Shown: piece by piece, positions 24,826 through 47,657 of the stretch
Position numbering within the stretch: the stretch's first letter is position 1
Layout of the letters: every line of letters starts with the position of its first letter
Source: Deltaproteobacteria bacterium
GTDB lineage: Bacteria > Desulfobacterota > Desulfobacteria > Desulfobacterales > JAHEIW01
Assembly (NCBI GenBank): GCA_024639185.1
Contig: JAHEIW010000004.1
Location: forward strand, 29,999 to 93,998
Direction of reading: 5' to 3'
Length of the DNA stretch: 64,000 bases
Translations under genes and position numbers: made by a program
Notes under the pieces: generated by a model
The model's database searches: none
The model's input: only the letters and a program-made list of their open reading frames with translations
Told to the model about the DNA's origin: nothing

Positions 24826-25617
24826 ATGAAAAAACTTCTTGTTGTATTTGCCCTGATTGCACTGGTATTTGCAGCCGGCACCATCCAGGCCAAAGACTGG
24901 AAGATGGTGCGCATCGGCGTGGAAGGGGCTTACCCGCCGTTCAGCTACACGACGGCCGACGGCAAATTGGAAGGATTTGACATTGACATCGCTATGGCGC
25001 TGTGTAAAGCCATGGGCGCCGAATGCAAACTGGTGGCCCAGGACTGGGACGGGATCATTCCCGCGTTGATGGCGCGCAAATACGATGCTATCATCGCCTC
25101 CATGTCCATCACCGAGGAGCGCAAGAAAAAAGTCGCTTTCACCAACAAATATTATCAGACCCCTGCCAAGTTTATTGCCAAAAAAGGCAGCATTAAAGGA
25201 TTTACGCGCGAACAAGTGGCGGAGGCAACCACCGGCAAGACAATCGGCGTCCAGCGCGCCACCATCCATGATAATTTCATCAGCGAACAAGGTGCACCGG
25301 ATGCGAAGATCAAACGGTATGCCACCCAGGACGAGGCCTATATGGACCTGGCGGCCGGGCGCATCGACATGTTGCTGGCCGACAGCGTCGCGATTGACGA
25401 GGGCTTTCTCAAAAAGCCCGAGGGCAAGGCTTTTGGATTTGTCGGGCCCGATCTGACGGAAGTGAAATATTTTGGTGTGGGCGCTGGGATTGCCTGTCGC
25501 AAGAAAGACAAGGATCTGGTGGAACTGTTTAATAAAGCCATCGATCAGATCCGGGCCGATGGCACCTATAAGAAGATTCAGGATAAATACTTTGATTTTA
25601 ATGTCTACGGCGAGTAA
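24826..25617 (+). CDS. Amino-acid ABC transporter substrate-binding protein (family 3)
   Basis: VRIGVEGAYPPFSYTTADGKLEGFDIDIAMALCKAMGAECKLVAQDWDGIIPALMARKYDAIIASMSITEERKKKVAFT. Confidence 0.93.
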   Translation: MKKLLVVFALIALVFAAGTIQAKDWKMVRIGVEGAYPPFSYTTADGKLEGFDIDIAMALCKAMGAECKLVAQDWDGIIPALMARKYDAIIASMSITEERKKKVAFTNKYYQTPAKFIAKKGSIKGFTREQVAEATTGKTIGVQRATIHDNFISEQGAPDAKIKRYATQDEAYMDLAAGRIDMLLADSVAIDEGFLKKPEGKAFGFVGPDLTEVKYFGVGAGIACRKKDKDLVELFNKAIDQIRADGTYKKIQDKYFDFNVYGE

Positions 25618-25643
25618 GCTGAGCTACTCATCTGGCATTTTTT

Positions 25644-25680
25644 ATAATGGGGGAGTTTTACTCCCCCATTATTTTTTACC
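25644..25680 (+). terminator. Intrinsic terminator
   Basis: ataatgggggagt-ttt-actcccccattat followed by tttttt. Confidence 0.85.
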
Positions 25681-25817
25681 TGAATCTTGTATGAAAATTA
25701 AAGAGAAGTCGATATTGTCATAAATGACAGCGATTTAGGCAAATTATAGAAGTACAACAAAATACCGATCAGTTAAAATGGATGATAATCATTTTATCTC
25801 ATTTTATCTCATTAATT

Positions 25818-25929
25818 TTCACCCGATGGGCGAGCCGGAGGCTTTCATCTGCTGCGTTATTAAGGACGAAGCATAGTTCACTATAGCCTCGCCCTTAAAT
25901 GCCTTGCACATGAAAGCCTCCAACCCGTG
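25818..25929. repeat. Inverted-repeat partner, left copy (~112 bp, itself palindromic)
   Basis: Near-perfect reverse complement of 28289-28400. Confidence 0.85.
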
Positions 25930-25975
25930 CAAAATTCAGGCAATAAAACGAACACAGCGCCGGAGCACAATAGCC

Positions 25976-27118
25976 ATGATAACCAAAACCATCAAACAGT
26001 ACACCCTGCCGAATGCCAGTCTGGGAAATGCGCGCTCACTAAAGATCATCCATTACGGCGATCAAAGCGCCGACCGCAAGGCCTATGTGCAGGCCGGCCT
26101 GCATGCCGATGAAGCGCCCGGCTTTGTCGTCATGCATCATCTGATCGATTTGTTGGATCAGGCCGATGCTGAAAACAAGATCGAGGGTCACGTTGTGCTC
26201 GTTCCGGTGGCCAATCCCATCGGGGTCAGCCAATGGCGCGATGAAGCCCTGCAGGGCCGCTTTGATTTTTTCAATAACACCAATTTTAACCGCCAGTATC
26301 CTGACATGACAGACCAGATTGCCGAGCAGGTCAAAGACCGGCTGGGAAGCTCAGCGAAGGAGAATGTGGCCCTGATCCGCAAGGCCACCGGCGAGATCCT
26401 GGGGTCCATTTCCCCGCCGGATGAGGCGGCTGCGCTGAAACACCAGCTGCTGTTGCTGTCATTTGATGCCGATGTCGTGCTGGACCTGCATTGCGACTAC
26501 CAGGCCCTCATGCACGTTTATTTAGGCACGCCGCTGTGGCCCGATGCCAAGGATCTATGCGCTCAGCTGGGCGCCGAAGTGACATTGCTGGCCGCAGATT
26601 CCGGCGTGACGCCTTATGACGAGGCCTGCAGCCGCATCTGGTGGCAGCTGGCCAAAAAATTCCCCGATCACCCGATTCCATCGGCCTGCCTGGCAGCCAC
26701 GGTCGAGCTGCGCGGCATGGCCGATGTCTCCCATGCGCAGGCGCAGCAGGATGCCCAAAATATCCTCTGGTTTTTGCAAAGAAGAGGGTTTGTCAAAGGA
26801 GCGGCGCCCGAGGTGCCGCCACTGAAAAATGAAGCAACGCCGTTGAGAGCCGTTGAGCATCTGAAGGCCACGGCCCCGGGTGTGGTGGTTTTTTTAAAAG
26901 CCCCGGGGGACCGGGTTGACAAGGGTGAAGTGATTGCCGAGATCGTCAATCCACTGGCAGACGGGCCGCAAGACCGCATCACGCCGGTGAAAAGCGCTGT
27001 CAGCGGCATCGTTTTTTCCATCAATACCGACCGCTATGCCCGGCCCGGGCGCATCCTAGCCAAGATCGCCGGTAAGGATCCGATCAAAGAGAAAGGTGAG
27101 GATTTGCTTTCTCCTTAG
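25976..27118 (+). CDS. Succinylglutamate desuccinylase/aspartoacylase (AstE/AspA, M14-like) family hydrolase
   Basis: VQAGLHADEAPGFVVMHHL (HxxE zinc motif), VLDLHCDYQALMHVY, C-terminal biotinyl-like barrel APGDRVDKGEVIAEIVNP. ATG 25976 preferred over 25904, which lies in the repeat. Confidence 0.85.
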   Translation: MITKTIKQYTLPNASLGNARSLKIIHYGDQSADRKAYVQAGLHADEAPGFVVMHHLIDLLDQADAENKIEGHVVLVPVANPIGVSQWRDEALQGRFDFFNNTNFNRQYPDMTDQIAEQVKDRLGSSAKENVALIRKATGEILGSISPPDEAAALKHQLLLLSFDADVVLDLHCDYQALMHVYLGTPLWPDAKDLCAQLGAEVTLLAADSGVTPYDEACSRIWWQLAKKFPDHPIPSACLAATVELRGMADVSHAQAQQDAQNILWFLQRRGFVKGAAPEVPPLKNEATPLRAVEHLKATAPGVVVFLKAPGDRVDKGEVIAEIVNPLADGPQDRITPVKSAVSGIVFSINTDRYARPGRILAKIAGKDPIKEKGEDLLSP

Positions 27119-27420
27119 ATGCATCTTTTGAAAAGCATCGGCTGATTGATATTTGAAGAGACAAGGCGTTTTCACAATTCGGAAAGCTACATAAATCATC
27201 AGTCCCGCTCAGGGCGGAATGCAAACTCATGCACAAGGGGGCGTATCGATAGAACAGAGCCCGTTTATCATATAATGAGTTACCTCTAAATTCAGTTTCA
27301 CTCCGCTAAAAAGCGCTGTGACGATCTGCTGTTCTTTCGCAACGCTCCCTAATGCATTCGAACAGTGCATCCCGCTATAAGCGGAACTGATAATTCATTC
27401 CGCTCAGCTCTGATACATCT

Positions 27421-27443
27421 GGTGGGAGCGGCATCTTGCCGCG
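27421..27443. repeat. REP-like element (GTGG + GAGCGGC-atctt-GCCGC hairpin)
   Basis: ggtgggagcggcatcttgccgcg. Confidence 0.5.
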
Positions 27444-27574
27444 AAAAATGAGCATTACAATGCGCGGAATAACGCAGCCATTGGAGCCTTTTGAGCCCCT
27501 TAATCGTCTTTCAATTAGATGCGAAATCCCGCTTCATCCTCATCGAGCGGGGAGATGAGGTTTTGAAACCACTG

Positions 27575-28267
27575 CTAGCTTTCGCGCGGGCGAAGATAAG
27601 CATGCCAGTGGTGTTCGGCCTTTTTGAATCCCCAGACGATCATAAAGGTGATGGCCAGGTAAAAAATACCGGCGGCGATAAAGGATTCAAAGGGCACAAA
27701 ATTGCGGGCGTTGACAATTTTGGCCGCACCGAACAGGTCGACAATGGTGATCAGCCCCGCCAAGGAGCTGCCGTGCAGCATGAAGATGACCTCGTTGCCG
27801 TAGGCGGGCAGAGCCCTTCTGAAGGTGCTGGGCAATATAATGCGGCGGTAAATTTGGGCATTGGACATACCACACGACTTGGCCGCTTCGACTTCTCCAT
27901 AAGGGGTCTGCTCGATGGTGCCCCGCAGGATCTCGCCCGTATAGGCGGCGGTGTTGAGCGCAAAGGCTACCAGGGCGCAGGTCCAGGCCTGCTGGAAGAT
28001 GACCCATAAAAAACTCTCGCGCACCGCTTCAAACTGCCCCATGCCGTGGTAAATCATAAACATCTGCACCAGCAGCGGCGTGCCCCGGAAAAAATAAATA
28101 TAGGCTTTGGGCAGTGCGCTGATCCATTTACTTTTTGATGACGCCAGCAAGGCAATCGGTATCGCCAGGAGCAGCCCCACCACCAGCGAGGCAAAAACCA
28201 GAACAATGGTAGTTCGCAGCCCCTGCAGATACAGCGGCAAATTATCTATGATGACCTGAACATCCAT
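27575..28267 (-). CDS. Amino-acid ABC transporter permease (HisM/GlnP type)
   Basis: GLRTTIVLVFASLVVGLLLAIPIAL...YIYFFRGTPLLVQMFMIYHGM...EAAKSCGMSNAQIYRRIILP. Confidence 0.9.
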   Translation of the reverse strand: MDVQVIIDNLPLYLQGLRTTIVLVFASLVVGLLLAIPIALLASSKSKWISALPKAYIYFFRGTPLLVQMFMIYHGMGQFEAVRESFLWVIFQQAWTCALVAFALNTAAYTGEILRGTIEQTPYGEVEAAKSCGMSNAQIYRRIILPSTFRRALPAYGNEVIFMLHGSSLAGLITIVDLFGAAKIVNARNFVPFESFIAAGIFYLAITFMIVWGFKKAEHHWHAYLRPRES

Positions 28268-28288
28268 AAAACGTTGACCCGCACTTTT

Positions 28289-28400
28289 CACGAGTCTGAG
28301 GCTTTCATATGCAAGGCATTTAAGGGCGAGGCTATAGTGAACTATGCCTCGACCTTAGTAACGCAGCAGATGAAAGCCTCCGGCTCGCCCGAAGGGTGAA
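28289..28400. repeat. Inverted-repeat partner, right copy (~112 bp)
   Basis: Near-perfect reverse complement of 25818-25929. Confidence 0.85.
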
Positions 28401-28524
28401 TATTTTTGGGCCCTTGGTTTTTAAATTATAGGTGCCACTACTATCGGTGCTTGACTACCACGATTTTGTACAACCCGCACATATTATAATTTTCTTGAAA
28501 AAAAATATTCATGAAATGTGCGGG

Positions 28525-29211
28525 TTAAGCTTTGCGCACCCCAACACTGTACTTTTTATCCAGCCATCGCATACCGACATCGGAAAAGCCCGTAATAACC
28601 AGAAACAAAAAAGCCACCACGCAATAAAAGGTAAACGGTTTACGGGTGGAGCCGCCGGCCAGACCGGCGTTGTAAACCATATCCTGCAGGCCGATCACCG
28701 AAACCAGTGCGGTGGTCTTGACCATCACCAGCCAGTTATTGCCGATTCCCGGCAGGGCATGCCGCACCATGGCCGGCATGGTAATCCGGAAAAAAACCTG
28801 TATTGGCGTCATGCCGAAGGCATAGCCGGCCTCGATTTCTCCGCGGGCGACGGCCAATATCCCGCCCCGAAAGGACTCCGCGAAATAGGCACCGAAAATA
28901 AAACCGATGGTGAGGACACCCGCAATAAAAGGATCTACATCGATATAATCCCAGCCCAGTTTTTCACCGATATTGTTGACCAGAATCTGGCCGCCAAAAA
29001 AGATGAGGGTCATCAAGACCAGATCGGGTATGCCCCTGATGACGGTGGTATAGGCGCCCGCGATGGTCTTGGCAATGCGGGATTTGGAAAGCTTGGCCAC
29101 CGCGCCGATCAATCCGAGCAAAATCGCAATCAGAAGGGACGCCAAGGCCACTTCGACGGTCAGCAGCATTCCTTTCAGAATCAGCGGAAAATAGGCAACG
29201 ACCTGAGACAT
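28525..29211 (-). CDS. Amino-acid ABC transporter permease (HisQ type)
   Basis: GMLLTVEVALASLLIAILLGLIGAVAKL...YTTVIRGIPDLVLMTLIFFGGQ...EAGYAFGMTPIQVFFRITMPAMVRHALPGIGN. Confidence 0.9.
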   Translation of the reverse strand: MSQVVAYFPLILKGMLLTVEVALASLLIAILLGLIGAVAKLSKSRIAKTIAGAYTTVIRGIPDLVLMTLIFFGGQILVNNIGEKLGWDYIDVDPFIAGVLTIGFIFGAYFAESFRGGILAVARGEIEAGYAFGMTPIQVFFRITMPAMVRHALPGIGNNWLVMVKTTALVSVIGLQDMVYNAGLAGGSTRKPFTFYCVVAFLFLVITGFSDVGMRWLDKKYSVGVRKA

Positions 29212-29272
29212 ACAGCTTTCCTGTAGTTAGAATGAATAAGCGAATTCAGTCAGAGTTCTATTGTCAAAACCG

Positions 29273-30172
29273 CTATTGCGGTGCTGAAGTATCGAAGGTA
29301 AACCACTCGATGGCCAGTTTTTTTATGGTTCCGTCACGCAGCGCTGCGTCAATGGCCTTTGAAAACTTATCGGCCAGCGCCTGATCCGTTTTGCGGACGG
29401 CCACGCCGATACCGCTGCCAAAAGGCCCGCCGGTCATCCGGGGGCCGGCGATCGTATACTCCTTGCCCTGTTCGGATTTAAGCACCGGCATCCAGTAGGC
29501 CATCCCCCCGACCAGCGCATCCAGACGGCCCTGGTATAGCTCGAGGTCAACGGTGTGCTGAAAGTCATAGATGCGAATTTCTGAATGCTCGCCCAGATAG
29601 GCATCGGCAAATTTTTGGAAGATCGTTGCGACCTGCACCCCGATGACTTTACCTCTAAAGGCGTTGAGAAGGGCATCCAGGGCATCCTGCTCGGCAGGGC
29701 TGAGATCGTCCAGGGTCAAATGCTCGACCTCTGATTTAAAGTTGGCCAGGGGGTTGTCTTTGCGCACCACAAAAATATTGGGCGTATCGGCATAGCTGCG
29801 TGAGAATGCGACCTTTTCTTTACGCGGTTCGGTGATCGACATGGCCGCTATGATGGCGTCATACTTGCCCTTATTGAGACCCTCGATGATGCCGCGCCAT
29901 TTCTGGGTAACGACTTCGCATTCGGCATTCATGCGCCCGCACAGATCTTTGATCAGCTCGATTTCAAACCCGACCAGTTTACCGGATTTATCAAAATAAT
30001 TCCAGGGCGGGTAGGCCCCCTCTGTTGCAATTTTAATTTGCTTCCAATCAGCGGCGACAGCCGGGGCCGTCAGTAGTACGGAGATCAGCACGGCCATCGA
30101 CAAAACGCTTAGTTTGCGCATCTGTTTTATTAACTTGGCGTTGCGATATGGGGTTATTTTTACAGGGTCCAT
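29273..30172 (-). CDS. Amino-acid ABC transporter substrate-binding protein (second)
   Basis: IKIATEGAYPPWNYFDKSGKLVGFEIELIKDLCGRMNAECEVVTQKWRGIIEGLNKGKYDAIIAAMSITEPRKEKVAFS. Start may be 30121. Confidence 0.92.
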   Translation of the reverse strand: MDPVKITPYRNAKLIKQMRKLSVLSMAVLISVLLTAPAVAADWKQIKIATEGAYPPWNYFDKSGKLVGFEIELIKDLCGRMNAECEVVTQKWRGIIEGLNKGKYDAIIAAMSITEPRKEKVAFSRSYADTPNIFVVRKDNPLANFKSEVEHLTLDDLSPAEQDALDALLNAFRGKVIGVQVATIFQKFADAYLGEHSEIRIYDFQHTVDLELYQGRLDALVGGMAYWMPVLKSEQGKEYTIAGPRMTGGPFGSGIGVAVRKTDQALADKFSKAIDAALRDGTIKKLAIEWFTFDTSAPQ

Positions 30173-30217
30173 TTTTCCACAGAAATGGTTTCTAAAATTG
30201 GTAAAATTGGCGCAGCA

Positions 30218-30994
30218 TTAAAAAGCGCCGACCAAAAATTCTCGGAAGCGATCCGACTTCGGATGTTCGAATACCTGCTTCGGGGGTCCATTTTCCACTA
30301 CCAGCCCCTCGTCTAAAAAGATGACCCGACTGGACACGTCACGCGCAAATCCCATTTCATGGGTAACCACCAGCATGGTGCGACCTTCTTCGGCTAAATC
30401 TCGCATGACTTTCAACACTTCACCCACCAGCTCCGGATCCAGGGCGGAGGTCGGCTCATCAAAGAGCAGCATATCCGGCTCCATGGCCAGGGCCCGTGCA
30501 ATGGCCGCGCGTTGCATCTGGCCGCCCGACATATGCGCCGGGTAGTAGTTGCGATGTTCATACAGACCGACGCGCTGCAATAATTTTTCAGCCCGTTCTT
30601 TTGCATCGGCTTTGGAAATTTTTAATACATTGACGGGTGCTTCCATCACATTTTGGATAACCGTCATGTGGGCCCAGAGATTAAACTGCTGGAAAACCAT
30701 CGCCAGTTTGGAGCGGATGCGTTCAACCTGTTTGCGGTCGGCAGCCTTGCGCTCACCCGAGCGCATCTCCTGCATCTTAATGAGTTCGCCCTTGACGAAA
30801 ACTTTTCCCGCGGTGGGGGTTTCCAGAAGATTAATGCAGCGCAGCAACGTGCTTTTGCCGGAACCGCTGCTGCCCAGTATGGATATGACGTCTTGCTCGT
30901 AGGCTTCTATGGATATGCCTCTCAGCACTTTGATGGTGCCGAAGCTTTTATGGATGTCTTCGACTTTTAGCGCGGGTGCGGCCATTCTGTTCAT
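30218..30994 (-). CDS. Amino-acid ABC transporter ATP-binding protein (HisP/GlnQ type)
   Basis: Walker [50 protein letters not shown]. Confidence 0.93.
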
Positions 30995-39959: not shown

Positions 39960-40091
39960 TCTTGCACTCGCATGAAAAATATCATAATGAAATAAAAGTG
40001 GATGGTGAAAGGCTCATTTGAACTTTCCGGGCTGTAAAAATTGATTATATCTCATCGGGCCAGTGTTTTGTGCCCTTATAAAGGATCGCCG

Positions 40092-41063
40092 ATGCGAAAC
40101 CTGACGATAGCACTAACCTTTTTGGGCGCTCTTTTTTTCTCGTGTGCCGCCGCTGTTGCCGACGGCCCTGCCGAAAAATCTAACGGCTTCAGCGGCCGGG
40201 TTTCAGCGGGCGCGGGGTATATGACCAGCACCGATCAGCTTAAAACGACCGATGAGAATAGGCGTATCGATTCGCTGAGCGGCGATGCGCAGCGGTACGA
40301 TCGATTTATCCCAATGGCCCTGTTTAACCTGCGCTATACCTTTGCCGAATCCGGCCGGCGGGTCTATTTTGGGACCGCTCCGGAAGCCAGCGGCCGGCCG
40401 AGGCTTTCGCTGGGTTTTGTGCAACCCTTCTCGGATGGCAGTCGGCTGGACCTGTCTGTTTTTACACAGCTGTTCTCAGAAGTCTGGCGCGATCCTTACC
40501 TGACTGACGTCCGCCGCAAAGAAACCCGCCAATACAGATACGGCGCTCGTATCGCCTACCGGCAGATGCTCGGTAGCAAATTTAATCTTTCTTACGCCTT
40601 TTCCCGGGTGGATGTTAATGTAGATGATATCGGAGACCGATTCAGCGAGTTGAAGCGCGACGGCTATTTTCATAGAGCCATACTCGAATATGACTTGCGC
40701 CTGGGTCAGACCCTGTCGTTGAGACCGGATTTTGAGCTGTCTGTCGCTGACATTGACGGTCAGGCCAATGCCTACACCGGGTACCGTTTTGGGCTGGGCC
40801 TGCGCAAATTTTCAAAATCCTACCAGCTGATGCTTAAAGCCGCCGTTGGCCGAAATGATTACGATGATGAGCACCCGATTTTCAGCAAAACCCGCGATGA
40901 TACAAATTATTCTGTGTTCGGGACGTTCACTCGCCCCAATCTTTTCGGGATCGACTATCTTTCTGGCACGTTGATAGCCGGATATCGCTTCCGGGACTCC
41001 AACATCAACTTTTTGAATGCGCAAACGCTTTTCAGCGGCGCTATGATCGGAGTCGAATTTTAA
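40092..41063 (+). CDS. DUF2860-like outer-membrane protein
   Basis: Signal peptide MRNLTIALTFLGALFFSCAAAVADG; beta-rich barrel-like repeats; ATG 40092 after aaggatcgccg. Confidence 0.7.
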   Translation: MRNLTIALTFLGALFFSCAAAVADGPAEKSNGFSGRVSAGAGYMTSTDQLKTTDENRRIDSLSGDAQRYDRFIPMALFNLRYTFAESGRRVYFGTAPEASGRPRLSLGFVQPFSDGSRLDLSVFTQLFSEVWRDPYLTDVRRKETRQYRYGARIAYRQMLGSKFNLSYAFSRVDVNVDDIGDRFSELKRDGYFHRAILEYDLRLGQTLSLRPDFELSVADIDGQANAYTGYRFGLGLRKFSKSYQLMLKAAVGRNDYDDEHPIFSKTRDDTNYSVFGTFTRPNLFGIDYLSGTLIAGYRFRDSNINFLNAQTLFSGAMIGVEF

Positions 41064-41448: not shown

Positions 41449-41877
41449 ATGAAAGATTCCTTGAAAGCCGGCCTGACGTTTAATTTTCAATACCGGGTTC
41501 CGGAGAACAAAACCGTCCCGTATCTCTACCCTGAAGCACCGGAATTTCAGAAGATGCCTAAAGTTCTGGCGACCGGGTTTATGGTGGGTCTGTTTGAGTG
41601 GACCTGTATCCAGGCCATTAACCCGCATCTAGACTGGCCCGAGGAGCAAACCGTCGGCATCGGGTTGAACCTGAATCACCTGGCAGCCACGCCACCGGGT
41701 TTGACCGTTACGGTAGCGGTGAAACTCAAGGAAGTCGACGGCCGACGGCTGGTTTTTTCGATTGTTGCCGATGACGGTCTCGACAAGATCTCTGAAGGGA
41801 CCCACGAGCGCTTTGTCATCGATGCCGCAAAATTTAACAAGAAGGTCGCCGAAAAAGGTCAAAGGCCGGGCACCTGA
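41449..41877 (+). CDS. Hotdog thioesterase (fluoroacetyl-CoA thioesterase FlK-like family)
   Basis: FMVGLFEWTCIQAINPHL...TVGIGLNLNHLAATPPGLTVTVAVKLKEVDGRRLVFSIVADDG...GTHERFVID. Confidence 0.8.
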   Translation: MKDSLKAGLTFNFQYRVPENKTVPYLYPEAPEFQKMPKVLATGFMVGLFEWTCIQAINPHLDWPEEQTVGIGLNLNHLAATPPGLTVTVAVKLKEVDGRRLVFSIVADDGLDKISEGTHERFVIDAAKFNKKVAEKGQRPGT

Positions 41878-41891
41878 GACCTGGCGCTTTT

Positions 41892-42665
41892 TTAGGACAG
41901 GGGTAGTGTTCTTTTGTAGGCAAAAGGAAACAGGCCTTCTTCACTCAATTTTTCTATTTTCTGAATCGAGTCTTCCAGGTGTTGAATCATTATGGCCTTG
42001 GCCTTAAGGGCATTTTTTTCTTCGATGGCCTGAACCAGCTGTTCGTGTTGTGAGACCACCAGGTCGAACCAGTCATCAATCGTCATGAAGACCTCGTTGC
42101 TCAGATTGGTGTTTCTTTCAATCAGCGACGCCAGACCTTCGTTGACACGCTCCATGATTTTGTTATGCGTGGCGGAAATATACAGATTGTGAAGCATGAT
42201 CTCCCAGTATGAACGCTCCTTTTTTTTATCTTCGGCTTCACCGTTGCCGGACTTCAGCTTTTCAATACAGGCTCTCATTTTCATCAAATCTTCATCCGTA
42301 CGACGGTGGGCTGCCAATTCCGCTGCTGATACGTTCAAAATCCAGCGCATTTCCATAACCTGCGGCAGGAGATCTTCGAGCCAGAAAGGCATAAACTGCA
42401 TGCTATCGGTGAAGTCGCTCAGAAATGGCGTTTGCACGAATATGCCCTGGCGTTCCACCGATTCAAGAACCCCCCAGGCTTCCAGGGTAATAATGGCTTC
42501 ACGCAGCAATGAGCGGCTGACGCCTAACATTTCCGCAAGATCCCGTTCGGCGGGAAGCTTGCTGCCTTTGGTGTACATCTTGGTTTTGATGAGCTCTTTA
42601 AGTTGGGCGATAACCTCGTCTCTTTTCTTTTTCAACGATTTTTCCTCGGCGCTTTTTTTGGTCAA
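41892..42665 (-). CDS. GntR/FadR-family transcriptional regulator (FCD domain)
   Basis: KGSKLPAERDLAEMLGVSRSLLREAIITLEAWGVLESVERQGIFV plus helical effector domain. Confidence 0.92.
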   Translation of the reverse strand: MTKKSAEEKSLKKKRDEVIAQLKELIKTKMYTKGSKLPAERDLAEMLGVSRSLLREAIITLEAWGVLESVERQGIFVQTPFLSDFTDSMQFMPFWLEDLLPQVMEMRWILNVSAAELAAHRRTDEDLMKMRACIEKLKSGNGEAEDKKKERSYWEIMLHNLYISATHNKIMERVNEGLASLIERNTNLSNEVFMTIDDWFDLVVSQHEQLVQAIEEKNALKAKAIMIQHLEDSIQKIEKLSEEGLFPFAYKRTLPLS

Positions 42666-42808
42666 CCAGTGGTTTGAAATAGCATCATTTTCGGGCTTGC
42701 CAATAGTATTGCTTTATTTACAGGTGAGAAATTGGATGATTTGACCGTTATTAGATAATAGGTCTTTATTTTAATATCTTAATAATATTTTCAATGTCAA
42801 GACAGGCG

Positions 42809-42871
42809 AAAATCTACCCATTTAATATTGACAAAACAGCGCAGATTGGGTAGATTTTTTTGGTAGGACCA
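42809..42871 (+). promoter_or_regulatory. GRE promoter with inverted repeat and GntR/FadR-type operator
   Basis: TTGACA (42828-42833)-17 nt-TAGATT (42851-42856); TGGTAGGACCA (42861-42871) fits TNGTNNNACNA; perfect IR AAAATCTACCCA/TGGGTAGATTTT at 42809-42820/42847-42858. Confidence 0.65.
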
Positions 42872-42985
42872 CAGGTCAACCAAAGACGCCTTTTTTTAGC
42901 CCCAGAACCGCCATTGTTGCGCTTTAACGGTTGATCCGAAGATCAAAACAGGTTTTGATGATTTTCACCAGGGAGGGTTTAGCAT

Positions 42986-45382
42986 ATGTCGGACAACATA
43001 AAAGTGGCCCAAAACAATCCGCAATTGACCAGCGAGCGGGTCGCCCGTTTGCGCGCACGCCTGGTCGAAGCTCGCCCGCAGGTTTTTGCCGAAAGGGCGC
43101 TGCTGGTGACCGCAGCGTATCAAAATGCCGAAAACGACCCACCGACAATTTACCGCGCCAAAGCCCTGGATCGAATCCTGCGCAAAAGCGCGATCAGCAT
43201 AAAGGCCGATGAATTGATCGTGGGCTGCAAGGTTCCCGTGGCCAAAGGATCCCCGGTTTATCCTGAATTCAATGTGAAATGGCTTGAAGATGAGCTGGAC
43301 ACCCTGGCCGGCAGGGAAGAAACATCTTTTGACATTGACGCCGAAACGAAAATGGCCCTAAAAGAGCGGGTTATCCCCTATTGGAAAGGGCGAACCGTTT
43401 ATGACCGCATTTTAGAAAAGGCACCGGAGAAGGCATTGGCGGCCGAAGAAGAGGGTCTTTTATTTCATTATTACATCGATCGCAGCATCGGCCATATCTC
43501 GGTTAATTATGAAAAAGTACTCCAACTGGGGTTTTGCGGAATCAAGGCCGAAATTGCCGCCCGGCAGGCGCGGTTGGCTGAAACCCAGGCCGATTTTTCA
43601 CAAAAAAGCGCCTTTTATGATGCCCTCATAATAGTCGCCGACGCGGCGATCGCTTTTTCGCATCGATATGCAGAGTTGGCTTCCGATCTGGCGGCCGACT
43701 GCGCAGATCCGGTTCGCCGCGGGGAGCTGGAGAACATTGCTCTCATTTGCCGGCGTGTGCCGCAACACGGAGCTGAAACCTTGCACGAGGCGCTGCAGTC
43801 CTTCTGGTTTGTCCATCTCATCTTGAATCTTGAAAGCAATTCTTACGCCATTTCCCCCGGCCGCTTTTGCCAGTATGTCTACCCGTTTTATCAGGCCGAC
43901 CTCGAAAGCGGAAAAACCGATGAAGCCGGAGCGCAGGAATTGATCAATTGCCTGTGGATCAAATTTAACGAAATGACAGTGGCCAAAGCCGGTGCTTCCG
44001 CCAAAGCCAGCAACACCTATGTTGATTTTCAAAACCTGAATATCGGCGGCCTCGGGGCCGATGGCCGCGACGGCACCAATGACATCTCTTATTTTTGCCT
44101 TAACGCCCTTGATGCCCTGGCGCTCCCCCAGCCCCAGCTATCGTGTCTGGTCAGTTCCAAAACCGATAAGGATTTTATGATGCGGGCCTGTGAGGTTGTG
44201 CGCAACGGAACCGGCATGCCCGCCATGTTCAATGATGATGTCAAAGTCATCAGTTTGTTATCCAGCGGCAAAACACTGCTGGATGCCCGCAATGGCGGTG
44301 TTAACGGATGTGTCGAGGTCAATGCCCAGGGGTGCGACAACATGGCCTCCACCGGATATGTGAATTTACCCAAATGCCTCGAGCTGGCGCTCAACAACGG
44401 CGTCAGTATGACCAGTGGCAAACAGCTGGGACCGCGGACGGGTAATATCACCGGTTTCAACGCCTTTGAAGATGTGTGGCAGGCCTTTGGCCAACAGCTT
44501 AAAGCGGCGGTGGCCCTGAAGGTCTCCTATGATACGGCCGCCCTAAAAGCCTTTGCCAAACACTGCCCCGTCGTCTTTACATCCCTGGTGATGGACGATT
44601 GCATTGAAAAGGGAAAAGATTTTCATCAGGGCGGCGCGCGCTACAATGCGCCCATGATGTGCGGTGTGGGGCTGGGCACCTTGACGGACTCGCTGGCGGC
44701 CATCCGACAATTTTGTTTTTCGACCGGACAATACACTCTTGCGCAAATTCATGCAGCCCTGTCAGACGATTTTTCGTCCCAGCCACTTTTACAGAAGCAA
44801 CTCTGGAAAAATGGCCCGAAATTCGGCAACAACCATAAACACGTCGACCGGCTGGCAGCCAATAGCGTGAATCTGTTCAGTGACATCCTCGGCGGCCATC
44901 TGAATGCTCACGGCGAAGCGTATCGTGCCAACATGATCCCCACGACAACCCACATTCCCATGGGGCATGCCACGGCGGCGACTCCCGACGGTCGTTTTGC
45001 CGGTGCGCCCCTGTCTGAAGGCGTATCTCCCGTCCAGGGGCAGGATATGTCCGGGCCCACCGGCGTGATTCTATCACTGGTCAAGGTCGACCATGCCCGC
45101 ACGGCGGGCACCCTGCTGAACATGAAATTTACACCGCAAATTTTAGCCTGCCGGGAGCAATTGGAGAAATTTTCCGAACTGATACGGACCTATTTCGACC
45201 TCGGGGGCTACCACATGCAGTTCAACGTGGTTTCCAAAGAAACGCTGCTGGCCGCTCAGAAAGACCCCCGGTCGTATCGTTCTTTGATTGTAAGGGTCGC
45301 CGGCTACAGTGACTATTTTGTTTCGCTGAGCAAAGATTTGCAGGATGAAATCATCATGCGTACCGCCCACGGGGTCGAGTGA
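42986..45382 (+). CDS. Glycyl radical enzyme, substrate unknown (PFL-like/HypD-like branch)
   Basis: Active-site GGVNGCVEVNAQGCDNMASTGYVNLPKCLELALNNGV; glycyl radical motif SLIVRVAGYSDYFVSL near C-terminus. Confidence 0.92.
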   Translation: MSDNIKVAQNNPQLTSERVARLRARLVEARPQVFAERALLVTAAYQNAENDPPTIYRAKALDRILRKSAISIKADELIVGCKVPVAKGSPVYPEFNVKWLEDELDTLAGREETSFDIDAETKMALKERVIPYWKGRTVYDRILEKAPEKALAAEEEGLLFHYYIDRSIGHISVNYEKVLQLGFCGIKAEIAARQARLAETQADFSQKSAFYDALIIVADAAIAFSHRYAELASDLAADCADPVRRGELENIALICRRVPQHGAETLHEALQSFWFVHLILNLESNSYAISPGRFCQYVYPFYQADLESGKTDEAGAQELINCLWIKFNEMTVAKAGASAKASNTYVDFQNLNIGGLGADGRDGTNDISYFCLNALDALALPQPQLSCLVSSKTDKDFMMRACEVVRNGTGMPAMFNDDVKVISLLSSGKTLLDARNGGVNGCVEVNAQGCDNMASTGYVNLPKCLELALNNGVSMTSGKQLGPRTGNITGFNAFEDVWQAFGQQLKAAVALKVSYDTAALKAFAKHCPVVFTSLVMDDCIEKGKDFHQGGARYNAPMMCGVGLGTLTDSLAAIRQFCFSTGQYTLAQIHAALSDDFSSQPLLQKQLWKNGPKFGNNHKHVDRLAANSVNLFSDILGGHLNAHGEAYRANMIPTTTHIPMGHATAATPDGRFAGAPLSEGVSPVQGQDMSGPTGVILSLVKVDHARTAGTLLNMKFTPQILACREQLEKFSELIRTYFDLGGYHMQFNVVSKETLLAAQKDPRSYRSLIVRVAGYSDYFVSLSKDLQDEIIMRTAHGVE

Positions 45383-46320
45383 TGCTGCAAACCGATACAG
45401 CCCTGGTATTTGATATCAAGCATTATGCCATTCATGACGGACCGGGTATCCGGACCACCGTTTTCATGAAAGGTTGCCCCTTAAGATGCCGGTGGTGCGC
45501 CAATCCCGAATCACAAAATGCCCACCCGGAAGTGCTGTACAACCGGGATCATTGCACCCTGTGCCGCGAATGCGAGCAGGCCTGTCCGAATGCCGCCGTT
45601 GAATTTGAGTCCGGCCGGCGCCGGCACTATCCGGAGCGCTGCACCGGATGCGGCCTCTGTGCCCGGGTCTGCCTGTCCGATGCGGTCGTACTGTGCGGTT
45701 ATACGATTGATGTCAAAACGCTCTGGCAGCAGATCAAAGCGGATCGTGCCTTCTGGGACCGCTCCAGCGGCGGCGTCACCCTCTCCGGCGGTGAGCCCTT
45801 GCTCCAACGGGAGTTTGCCCGGGCGTTTCTTTCCCATTGCCAGAGCCGCCGGGTCCATACGGCGATTGAAACCTGCGGTCATGCGGCTGAAGCGCATTTC
45901 GATGCCATGCTTTCGCATGTGGACCTGGTCATCTTTGATTTTAAAATGGAAGACACCGCTGCCCATGCGCGGTACACGGCCGTATCGAACCATCGGATCA
46001 AAACCAATTTATTAAACCTGTTAAAAAGCAACAAAGATGTTCTGGTGCGCTGGCCGCTGATACCCGGTTACAATGATTCTCCGGGCATGATCAAAAAAAC
46101 CGGTGCGTTTCTGGCAAAAGCTCGTACGGGGCTCCCGGTTGAAGTTTTGCCCTATCATGGCCTGGGAGCGAATAAATACGCGCACCTGGGTCGGCCCTAT
46201 GCACTTTCAGAAGTTAAAACGCCCGACGACCTTCAACTGAAAGCGGTGGCCGATTCTCTGCGCGGATTTGATCTGGATCTCAAGCTGGCTTACAGCCAGC
46301 AAACCGAAAAACGGATCTAA
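45379..46320 (+). CDS. Glycyl radical enzyme activating enzyme (radical SAM, two extra 4Fe-4S)
   Basis: HDGPGIRTTVFMKGCPLRCRWCANPES (CxxxCxxC), two CxxCxxCxxxC ferredoxin motifs; overlaps the GRE stop codon. Confidence 0.95.
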   Translation: MMLQTDTALVFDIKHYAIHDGPGIRTTVFMKGCPLRCRWCANPESQNAHPEVLYNRDHCTLCRECEQACPNAAVEFESGRRRHYPERCTGCGLCARVCLSDAVVLCGYTIDVKTLWQQIKADRAFWDRSSGGVTLSGGEPLLQREFARAFLSHCQSRRVHTAIETCGHAAEAHFDAMLSHVDLVIFDFKMEDTAAHARYTAVSNHRIKTNLLNLLKSNKDVLVRWPLIPGYNDSPGMIKKTGAFLAKARTGLPVEVLPYHGLGANKYAHLGRPYALSEVKTPDDLQLKAVADSLRGFDLDLKLAYSQQTEKRI

Positions 46321-46356
46321 CACAGCACCTTAATATTTTCATACCGGGGGGGACAA

Positions 46357-47097
46357 ATGCCTTTAAAAGATAAGACAGCCCTGGTAACCGGTGCCAGAGT
46401 CGGTATCGGCAGGGCCATTGCCGTGCATCTGGCCGATCAGGGTGCCAATATCATCGCCTGTTCACGAACACTTTCGCCGGATGACACCGTTATTGCAGAG
46501 TGCGCCTCCAAAGGATCAAAGGCCCTGGCGGTGGCAGCCGATGTCGCTGCGCTGCAGGATTGCGTGCAAGTCGTAAAAAAAGGGATAGATCGTTTCGGGC
46601 GAATTGATATCCTGGTCAATAATGCCGGCATATATCCTTCAGCACCTTTGCTGGAAATAGACGAGCAGACCTGGGACCGGGTTTTTGCCGTCAATCTTAA
46701 GGGGACCCTGTTTGCCGCCCAGAGCGTGGCCAAACTGGCAATGATTCCTCAAAAAAGCGGTAGAATTATCAATATCAGCTCCTGCGATGGCCGACGGCCG
46801 ACAGCCGGAATCGCCCATTATGCTGCATCCAAGGCCGGTGTTATCAGTCTGACCAAATCGATGGCCCTGGAGCTGGCGCCCCATAACATCACCGCCAATG
46901 CGGTTGCGCCGGGCTGGGTGGAAACCGAAGCCATACTGAAGTCCGATCGCTGGAAAACGGCTGTTGAGGAAATTCCGCTGGGCAGGCTTGCCCGGCCGGA
47001 AGAGATCGCCGGGATGGTCGCCTTTCTAGCAGACGGCAGTGCCGGGTATATTACCGGCGCGACGTTTGATATCAACGGCGGCCTCATTATGGATTAG
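46357..47097 (+). CDS. SDR family oxidoreductase
   Basis: ALVTGARVGIGRAIAVHLA, NNAG, YAASKAGV, C-terminal GYITGATFDINGGLIMD. Confidence 0.92.
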   Translation: MPLKDKTALVTGARVGIGRAIAVHLADQGANIIACSRTLSPDDTVIAECASKGSKALAVAADVAALQDCVQVVKKGIDRFGRIDILVNNAGIYPSAPLLEIDEQTWDRVFAVNLKGTLFAAQSVAKLAMIPQKSGRIINISSCDGRRPTAGIAHYAASKAGVISLTKSMALELAPHNITANAVAPGWVETEAILKSDRWKTAVEEIPLGRLARPEEIAGMVAFLADGSAGYITGATFDINGGLIMD

Positions 47098-47141
47098 AAA
47101 ACATCATACCTGTTGATTGATTTTACGGAAAGAAGGACAAC

Positions 47142-47657
47142 ATGAAGCACATCTCCTTTGCAGCGCTTGCCGATAAAGCGGCTGAATTAAATCAGGCCGG
47201 CGAAAAATGGCATTTTCACATGATCGGCCGCGCCTGCATATTCAGCCGGTTAAAGAACGAATATGAAATCATCATCGAAATCGAATCGACGGGTGAAGAA
47301 TTGGCGTGCCGTTTTTCCGAAAAACCCCTATCGGAAACGCGCCGGATGGCCGAACTGTGCTACGGGCCCGGCTTTTTAAACAATGAAGAGAACTCTGATG
47401 ACACGATTACGACTGATCAGAAGGCGGATCAAAACGAAGCATTCGGTACGATAATGGATCGCGCCCGGGCCAGTTGCGCAGCCGGCACAGCCTGGCACAA
47501 CCATCATCTTTTCCCCGGGTGCATTTTCAATCCTCAAAGAGGAAAACACAGCATTGTTTTTGAAGATGAAAGCAATGGAGAAGCGCTGTATGCATACTAT
47601 GACCATGATCCGGTAAAAGATCTGGCCAAACTGGAAGCGCTTTTTTTCGCTAAATGA
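47142..47657 (+). CDS. Hypothetical protein with internal duplication (WHxH...C motif twice)
   Basis: Half 1 WHFHMIGRACIFSRLKNEYEIIIEIESTGEELACRF; half 2 WHNHHLFPGCIFNPQRGKHSIVFEDESNGEALYAYY. Confidence 0.7.
   Translation: MKHISFAALADKAAELNQAGEKWHFHMIGRACIFSRLKNEYEIIIEIESTGEELACRFSEKPLSETRRMAELCYGPGFLNNEENSDDTITTDQKADQNEAFGTIMDRARASCAAGTAWHNHHLFPGCIFNPQRGKHSIVFEDESNGEALYAYYDHDPVKDLAKLEALFFAK

Follow-up and report, generated by a model that had tools for sequence, protein, structure and literature searches.

A glycyl radical enzyme clade related to HypD that retains its carboxylate anchors and lacks its essential aspartate

Introduction

Which reaction is catalyzed by the glycyl radical enzyme (GRE) of the gene cluster at positions 42986-47657 of a 64,000-nucleotide stretch (the window) of a Desulfobacterales genome (assembly GCA_024639185.1, contig JAHEIW010000004.1)? 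An initial annotation, made from the sequence alone, described a cluster around this GRE and left its substrate unassigned. We followed this up with family models, phylogeny, structure prediction and a comparison of loci. Our favored answer, at a probability of roughly two in five, is that the enzyme eliminates water from an isomer or derivative of hydroxyproline, or from a like hydroxylated amino acid.

Results

The GRE open reading frame (ORF) (42986..45382, + strand) encodes 798 amino acids with no stop codon inside and matches the Pfam families PFL-like (674 bits) and Gly_radical (111 bits). The hallmarks of the GRE eliminase class are present: the radical glycine Gly773 (45302..45304, +; Gly765 in trans-4-hydroxy-L-proline dehydratase, HypD) in the motif RVAGYSDYF, Cys442, the barrel fold and an adjoining radical S-adenosylmethionine (SAM) activase. 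Against the NCBIfam HypD model NF043068, the enzyme scores 776.6 bits at a cut-off of 1100, and it lies far under every NCBIfam GRE equivalog cut-off. Genuine HypDs in relatives score 1225-1448 bits with this model, and a true HypD (L001, 1225 bits) is encoded in the same genome as the window, which suggests that the copy studied here should do something else.

Two trees were built, one of 64 GREs and one of 24 with bootstrapping, and support values are given in that order. The window GRE falls in a clade of eight sequences from Desulfobacterales-type metagenome-assembled genomes and Chloroflexota (clade A; monophyly 97; 99/98), which share the motif NGCVE...G.[DE].MA[SA][ST]GY. Its seven relatives came from a scan of GTDB genomes, where close relatives were found in few places (L041, 71% identity; L042, 57%; L043-L045, 54-55%, Chloroflexota), and from whole-genome searches (G002, 92%; G265, 55%). 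Clade B (100; 100/100), at 45-50% identity, comprises enzymes of Desulfobacterales, Acidobacteriota and Aminicenantes (L006, L007, L046-L054, L061 and L068), with L062 also listed as a member; its motif is NGCV[AS]..C.GKDRMAS[ST]GY, in which the glutamate of the CXE motif is lost. The HypD clade (100; 100/100) excludes the window GRE. Clades A and B group as sisters (96; 97/96), and A, B and HypD form one group (100; 100/99). An approximately unbiased test does not exclude A with HypD without B (p = 0.083), which speaks against a firm order of A and B. On these sequences, A and B are probably sisters and together sister to HypD, an order that is not settled. One genome (G296) carries both a clade A enzyme (L041) and a clade B enzyme (L050), which argues for different jobs of the two.

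Searches of plasmid and E. coli collections returned only HypD-like and other GREs below 41% identity, or nothing; an initial codon-pattern search of the class lacked the stringency to be useful. In the open-access literature, subscription papers not being covered, we found no paper on clade A or B.

The closest solved structure by sequence is HypD (646 bits), followed by glycerol and propanediol dehydratases, with other GREs weaker. An AlphaFold2 model of the window GRE (predicted local distance difference test score [pLDDT] 89, predicted template modeling score 0.92) has HypD (6vxc) as its first-ranked Foldseek match, with a template modeling score of 0.95 and 40% identity. HypD and the window locus also share the pairing of GRE and activase, whereas the neighboring genes differ. 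At the position of HypD Trp277-Asp278, the 1,2-propanediol and glycerol dehydratases (9rco, 5i2g, 1r8w; 36-40% identity) have the same shortened loop as the window enzyme; however, they carry Phe rather than the carboxylate-binding Ser of clade A (Ser342 in the window), and no shell gene lies near the window GRE. The N-methyl-hydroxyproline dehydratases (8iof, 8id1; 31-33% identity) are GREs for hydroxyproline derivatives but weaker matches than HypD by both sequence and fold. HplG (7vua), a C-N lyase named hydroxyproline lyase (PMC11528403), also acts on a hydroxyproline and is a possible mechanistic model, but, compared by overall sequence and fold, it is distant in sequence, with 30% identity in the structural alignment. 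GREs that act on hydroxyproline or its N-methyl forms are already known (HypD; 7vua; 8iof, 8id1); judged by sequence, clade A is not one of them.

Pocket residues were compared using the HypD numbering and residue roles of PMC7077986. The carboxylate anchors Ser334, Tyr450 and Thr645 are each kept in all eight clade A sequences; in the window they correspond to Ser342 (44009..44011, +) and its partners Tyr458 (44357-44359, +) and Thr653 (44942-44944, +). Arg156, His160, Asp339, Phe340, Cys434 and Glu436 are equally kept in 8/8, and the CXE motif (Cys442-Val443-Glu444 in the window, 44309..44317, +) is present throughout clade A and missing in clade B. In four further GREs, other residues mostly stand at the three anchor positions, and the anchors, together with Arg156, His160 and Asp339, are mostly absent from other GREs aligned; Asp339 has been reported as not conserved in other eliminases (PMC7077986).

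The other end of the pocket differs from HypD. Clade A has Tyr for Phe152, a one-residue deletion at Trp277, and Tyr at the place of Asp278 in all eight sequences (Tyr287 in the window, 43844..43846, +). Asp occupies this position in 18/18 HypDs and His in 10/10 clade B enzymes. Window Lys334 is offset by one residue from HypD Lys326 in the alignment, beside an indel. Asp278 is essential in HypD, where D278N is inactive, and its proposed role is to take a proton from the amine and to donate one to the departing hydroxyl (PMC7077986). With the anchors kept and Asp278 lost, the carboxylate end of the clade A pocket is that of HypD and the amine or leaving-group end is not. Clade B goes further, with Ala or Ser for Glu436 (GCVA/GCVS) and Glu or Asp for Asp339; judged from these residues, its reaction cannot follow the standard CXE mechanism.

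The initial annotation had set the GRE apart from hydroxyproline-dehydratase-like and GCVEP-type GREs by its active-site motif, quoted as GGVNGCVEVNAQGCDNMAS, which matches residues 437-455 exactly. The separate clade in both trees, the scores under the NCBIfam cut-offs and the change at an essential HypD residue agree with this, and the enzyme does not cluster in a characterized GRE family with the same pocket residues. Its "unassigned" substrate holds insofar as no characterized family claims the enzyme; as a HypD sister with the carboxylate pocket kept, the question is less open than that word implied.

Downstream, a radical-SAM activase (45379..46320, +) carries a CX3CX2C motif and two ferredoxin-type (4Fe-4S) cysteine motifs, with Fer4 and radical-SAM Pfam matches and an NCBIfam PFLE_PFLC score of 331 bits (cut-off 174). 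Its GTG start at 45379 overlaps the GRE stop codon (GTGA), so translational coupling, as previously annotated, is plausible. A FabG-like short-chain dehydrogenase/reductase (SDR; 46357..47097, +), identified by Pfam and NCBIfam and by its TGxxxGIG and Ser-Tyr-Lys motifs, starts 36 bp after the activase and is presumed to be an oxidoreductase of the substrate or product. On the same strand, 44 bp after the SDR, lies an ORF for a 171-amino-acid protein (47142..47657, +) with no Pfam or NCBIfam match, in keeping with its earlier description as novel. Self-alignment (score 105 versus 46 for the best of 500 shuffles) reveals two tandem repeats of about 70 residues, an internal duplication with a W-H-x-H ... 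C-I-F motif in each half. Its single-sequence structure model (pLDDT 40) is unusable. Among 291 genomes of the class, only one sister species has a homologue.

Divergent from the GRE is a gene for a FadR-type regulator (GntR and FCD domains; 41892..42665, -) that is LldR-like: LldR is its top NCBIfam match, far under cut-off. The regulator is 94% identical in G002 and 80% in the L041 locus, and a third related locus (L097) also has a FadR-type gene divergent from its GRE. A predicted sigma-70-like promoter of the GRE operon (TTGACA-17-TAGATT, 42828..42856, +) is followed directly 3' of the -10 element by a predicted double palindromic operator, TTGGTAGGACCACAGGTCAACCAA (42860..42883, +). The sequence TGGTNNGACCA occurs in the GRE promoters of the window, G002, L041 and L097, twice in the last, and in at most 0.14% of shuffles of each region. 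The link between regulator and GRE is thus conserved beyond the genus, and the regulator may bind these palindromes. Where the FadR gene begins (42658..42669, no strand assigned), there is another palindrome, TTGGTCAACCAG, a putative autoregulation site. In a regulon search of these four genomes, TTGGTNNGACCA occurred elsewhere at background counts, and the search therefore yielded no distant member of the regulon. We infer that the GRE is functional, because its motifs are intact, it is 92% conserved in the sister species and the operators are conserved.

Conservation of the rest of the neighborhood is narrower. The regulator-GRE link holds across genera, whereas the SDR and the small protein are restricted to two sister species (the window and G002) and were rejected as conserved partners. 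The FlK-like gene (41449-41877, PF22636), which the initial annotation had listed among the neighbors, is convergent with the FadR gene, does not belong to the operon and has no counterpart next to the L041 GRE; it was rejected as a pathway enzyme, and in G002 it is syntenic as one part of a long colinear region. Tests of the gene-sized ORFs surrounding the locus revealed no microcompartment gene, as had been noted before. The flanking genes on both sides (FlK-like, HAD, aldo-keto reductase, DUF2860, cyclic-nucleotide-binding, PilZ and OmpA) are ordinary. The DUF2860 protein (40041-41063), probably in the outer membrane, lies upstream of the FlK-like gene and is conserved in G002. The interval 24826-30994, about 12 kb from the GRE, holds an AstE/AspA-type deacylase surrounded by amino-acid ABC transporter genes (family-3 binding protein, permeases and ATPase).

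The loci of relatives differ in content. After the L041 GRE, an amidohydrolase, tripartite ATP-independent periplasmic (TRAP) transporter genes and a 2-hydroxyacid dehydrogenase follow in line. At L042, a molybdenum hydroxylase and a small SDR precede the GRE, and LarA-, RACo- and FtcD-type genes and a TRAP transporter follow it; the segment L042:9400-16187 holds a LarA-like racemase, two RACo-type activators and an FtcD-cyclodeaminase-like fusion. Some kilobases upstream of the L045 GRE are Pyr_redox/BFD and Fer2_4 subunits of the amino-acid-oxidase kind and Liv-type permeases. At L097 (8807-15538), the clade A GRE is followed by a second, different GRE (TNCIEPDIPG), with two activases in tandem, an arrangement that suggests two radical steps in one pathway.

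Hydroxyproline, proline-racemase or Liv transporter genes are frequent neighbors of clade B GREs. At L068, the activase is immediately followed by a proline-racemase-family gene, and a cis-3-hydroxy-L-proline dehydratase there scores above its curated cut-off (518 versus 500); L061 has a trans-3-hydroxyproline-dehydratase-like gene about 6 kb off. Within one 20 kb segment, L036 holds HypD, an aconitase-X type cis-3-hydroxyproline-dehydratase-like gene, a trans-3 type gene and an ornithine-cyclodeaminase-family reductase gene.

The window genome contains a third GRE (contig C347; L002:1084-3510, L039:573-10023), which is CutC-like with GCVVP replacing GCVEP. By eye, it lies near an apparent MttB-type trimethylamine methyltransferase and a corrinoid protein. 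GCVVP also occurs in a relative from Peptoclostridium acidaminophilum (L102).

Discussion

A hydroxyproline-like substrate for clade A is favored because the pocket and the sister clade B point there. HypD as the closest solved relative by sequence and predicted fold, the true HypD elsewhere in the genome, and the redox subunits and Liv-type permeases near the L045 GRE also speak for this reading. A FadR-type repressor on TTGGT-N-ACCA operators would be released by the substrate or product, its putative ligand, and the operon of GRE, activase, SDR and small protein would then be expressed. The activase would place the radical on Gly773, from which it would pass to Cys442, and the Cys442 thiyl radical would abstract a substrate hydrogen. 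The substrate, in this reading an isomer or derivative of 4-hydroxyproline or a like hydroxylated amino acid, would be held by its carboxylate as in HypD, by Ser342, Tyr458 and Thr653 with Arg166 nearby, and Glu444 and His170 would be located at its hydroxyl. The base and acid role of Asp278 would not be needed for this substrate, or would be performed otherwise. Water would be eliminated, and the SDR may reduce or oxidize the carbonyl formed.

Several observations weigh against this proposal. Since Asp278 is essential in HypD (PMC7077986) and lost in clade A, the chemistry at the nitrogen must differ. No hydroxyproline gene lies directly beside any clade A GRE, and the clade A neighborhood beyond regulator, GRE and activase is not conserved. 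The TRAP transporter, 2-hydroxyacid dehydrogenase, amidohydrolase and LarA-like genes at L041 and L042 suit hydroxy acids, and these neighbors leave room for such a substrate.

The main rival is dehydration of a nitrogen-free hydroxylated carboxylic acid, either a 2,3-dihydroxy acid or a cyclic hydroxy acid, with a regulator sensing the hydroxy acid and an SDR or 2-hydroxyacid dehydrogenase handling the oxo acid. The TRAP transporter and dehydrogenase in line with the L041 GRE fit this, as do the LldR match of the regulator, though far under cut-off, and the resemblance of the loop at Tyr287 to glycerol and diol dehydratases. The TRAP transporter and LarA near the L042 GRE fit as well, this LarA matching malate racemase LarAH6 best (382 bits, cut-off 500), but they may belong to other operons. 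Asp339, which serves both amine and carboxylate in HypD, is nevertheless kept in all of clade A, and sister clade B sits among hydroxyproline genes, so that we regard a nitrogen-free substrate as unlikely. Ring opening by a C-N lyase appears similarly doubtful. Here, the thiyl radical would abstract the hydrogen at the hydroxyl-bearing carbon, Glu444 would accept the hydroxyl proton and the ring C-N bond would break as in HplG, giving an amino-keto acid for reduction by the SDR. A C-N-cleaving hydroxyproline GRE does exist (HplG, 7vua; PMC11528403), an SDR acting on a ketone fits, and the loss of Asp278, with its proposed amine deprotonation, while Glu436 is kept fits an ordinary CXE-base mechanism. 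HplG is, however, a distant match (402 bits versus 646 for HypD), and the activity would therefore have arisen separately.

An in-genome HypD duplicate of relaxed sequence that still dehydrates trans-4-hydroxy-L-proline would account for HypD being the closest characterized relative and for the identity of most pocket residues. With the essential Asp278 absent from all eight clade A enzymes, 777 bits where the HypD model asks for 1100, and a bona fide HypD in the same genome, this is very improbable. The share that these readings leave, dehydration of a hydroxyproline-like substrate included, belongs to something else.

Among the GREs of the human gut, HypD is prominent, and its mechanism has been interpreted on the basis of Asp278 and Glu436. 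Two natural sister lineages keep the carboxylate pocket without Asp278 (clade A) or without both Asp278 and Glu436 (clade B). We tentatively suggest, as a possibility short of even odds, that they are two new GRE activities from the HypD line: clade A would be an eliminase that anchors its substrate by the carboxylate and has new chemistry at the nitrogen or leaving group, and clade B would be a GRE with the HypD pocket but no CXE glutamate, whose reaction is other than a standard CXE-type elimination. Identifying their substrates would put the HypD mechanism to a direct test and would reveal a further anaerobic route by which sediment and groundwater bacteria, namely Chloroflexota and relatives of the Desulfobacterales, process some hydroxylated amino or carboxylic acid.

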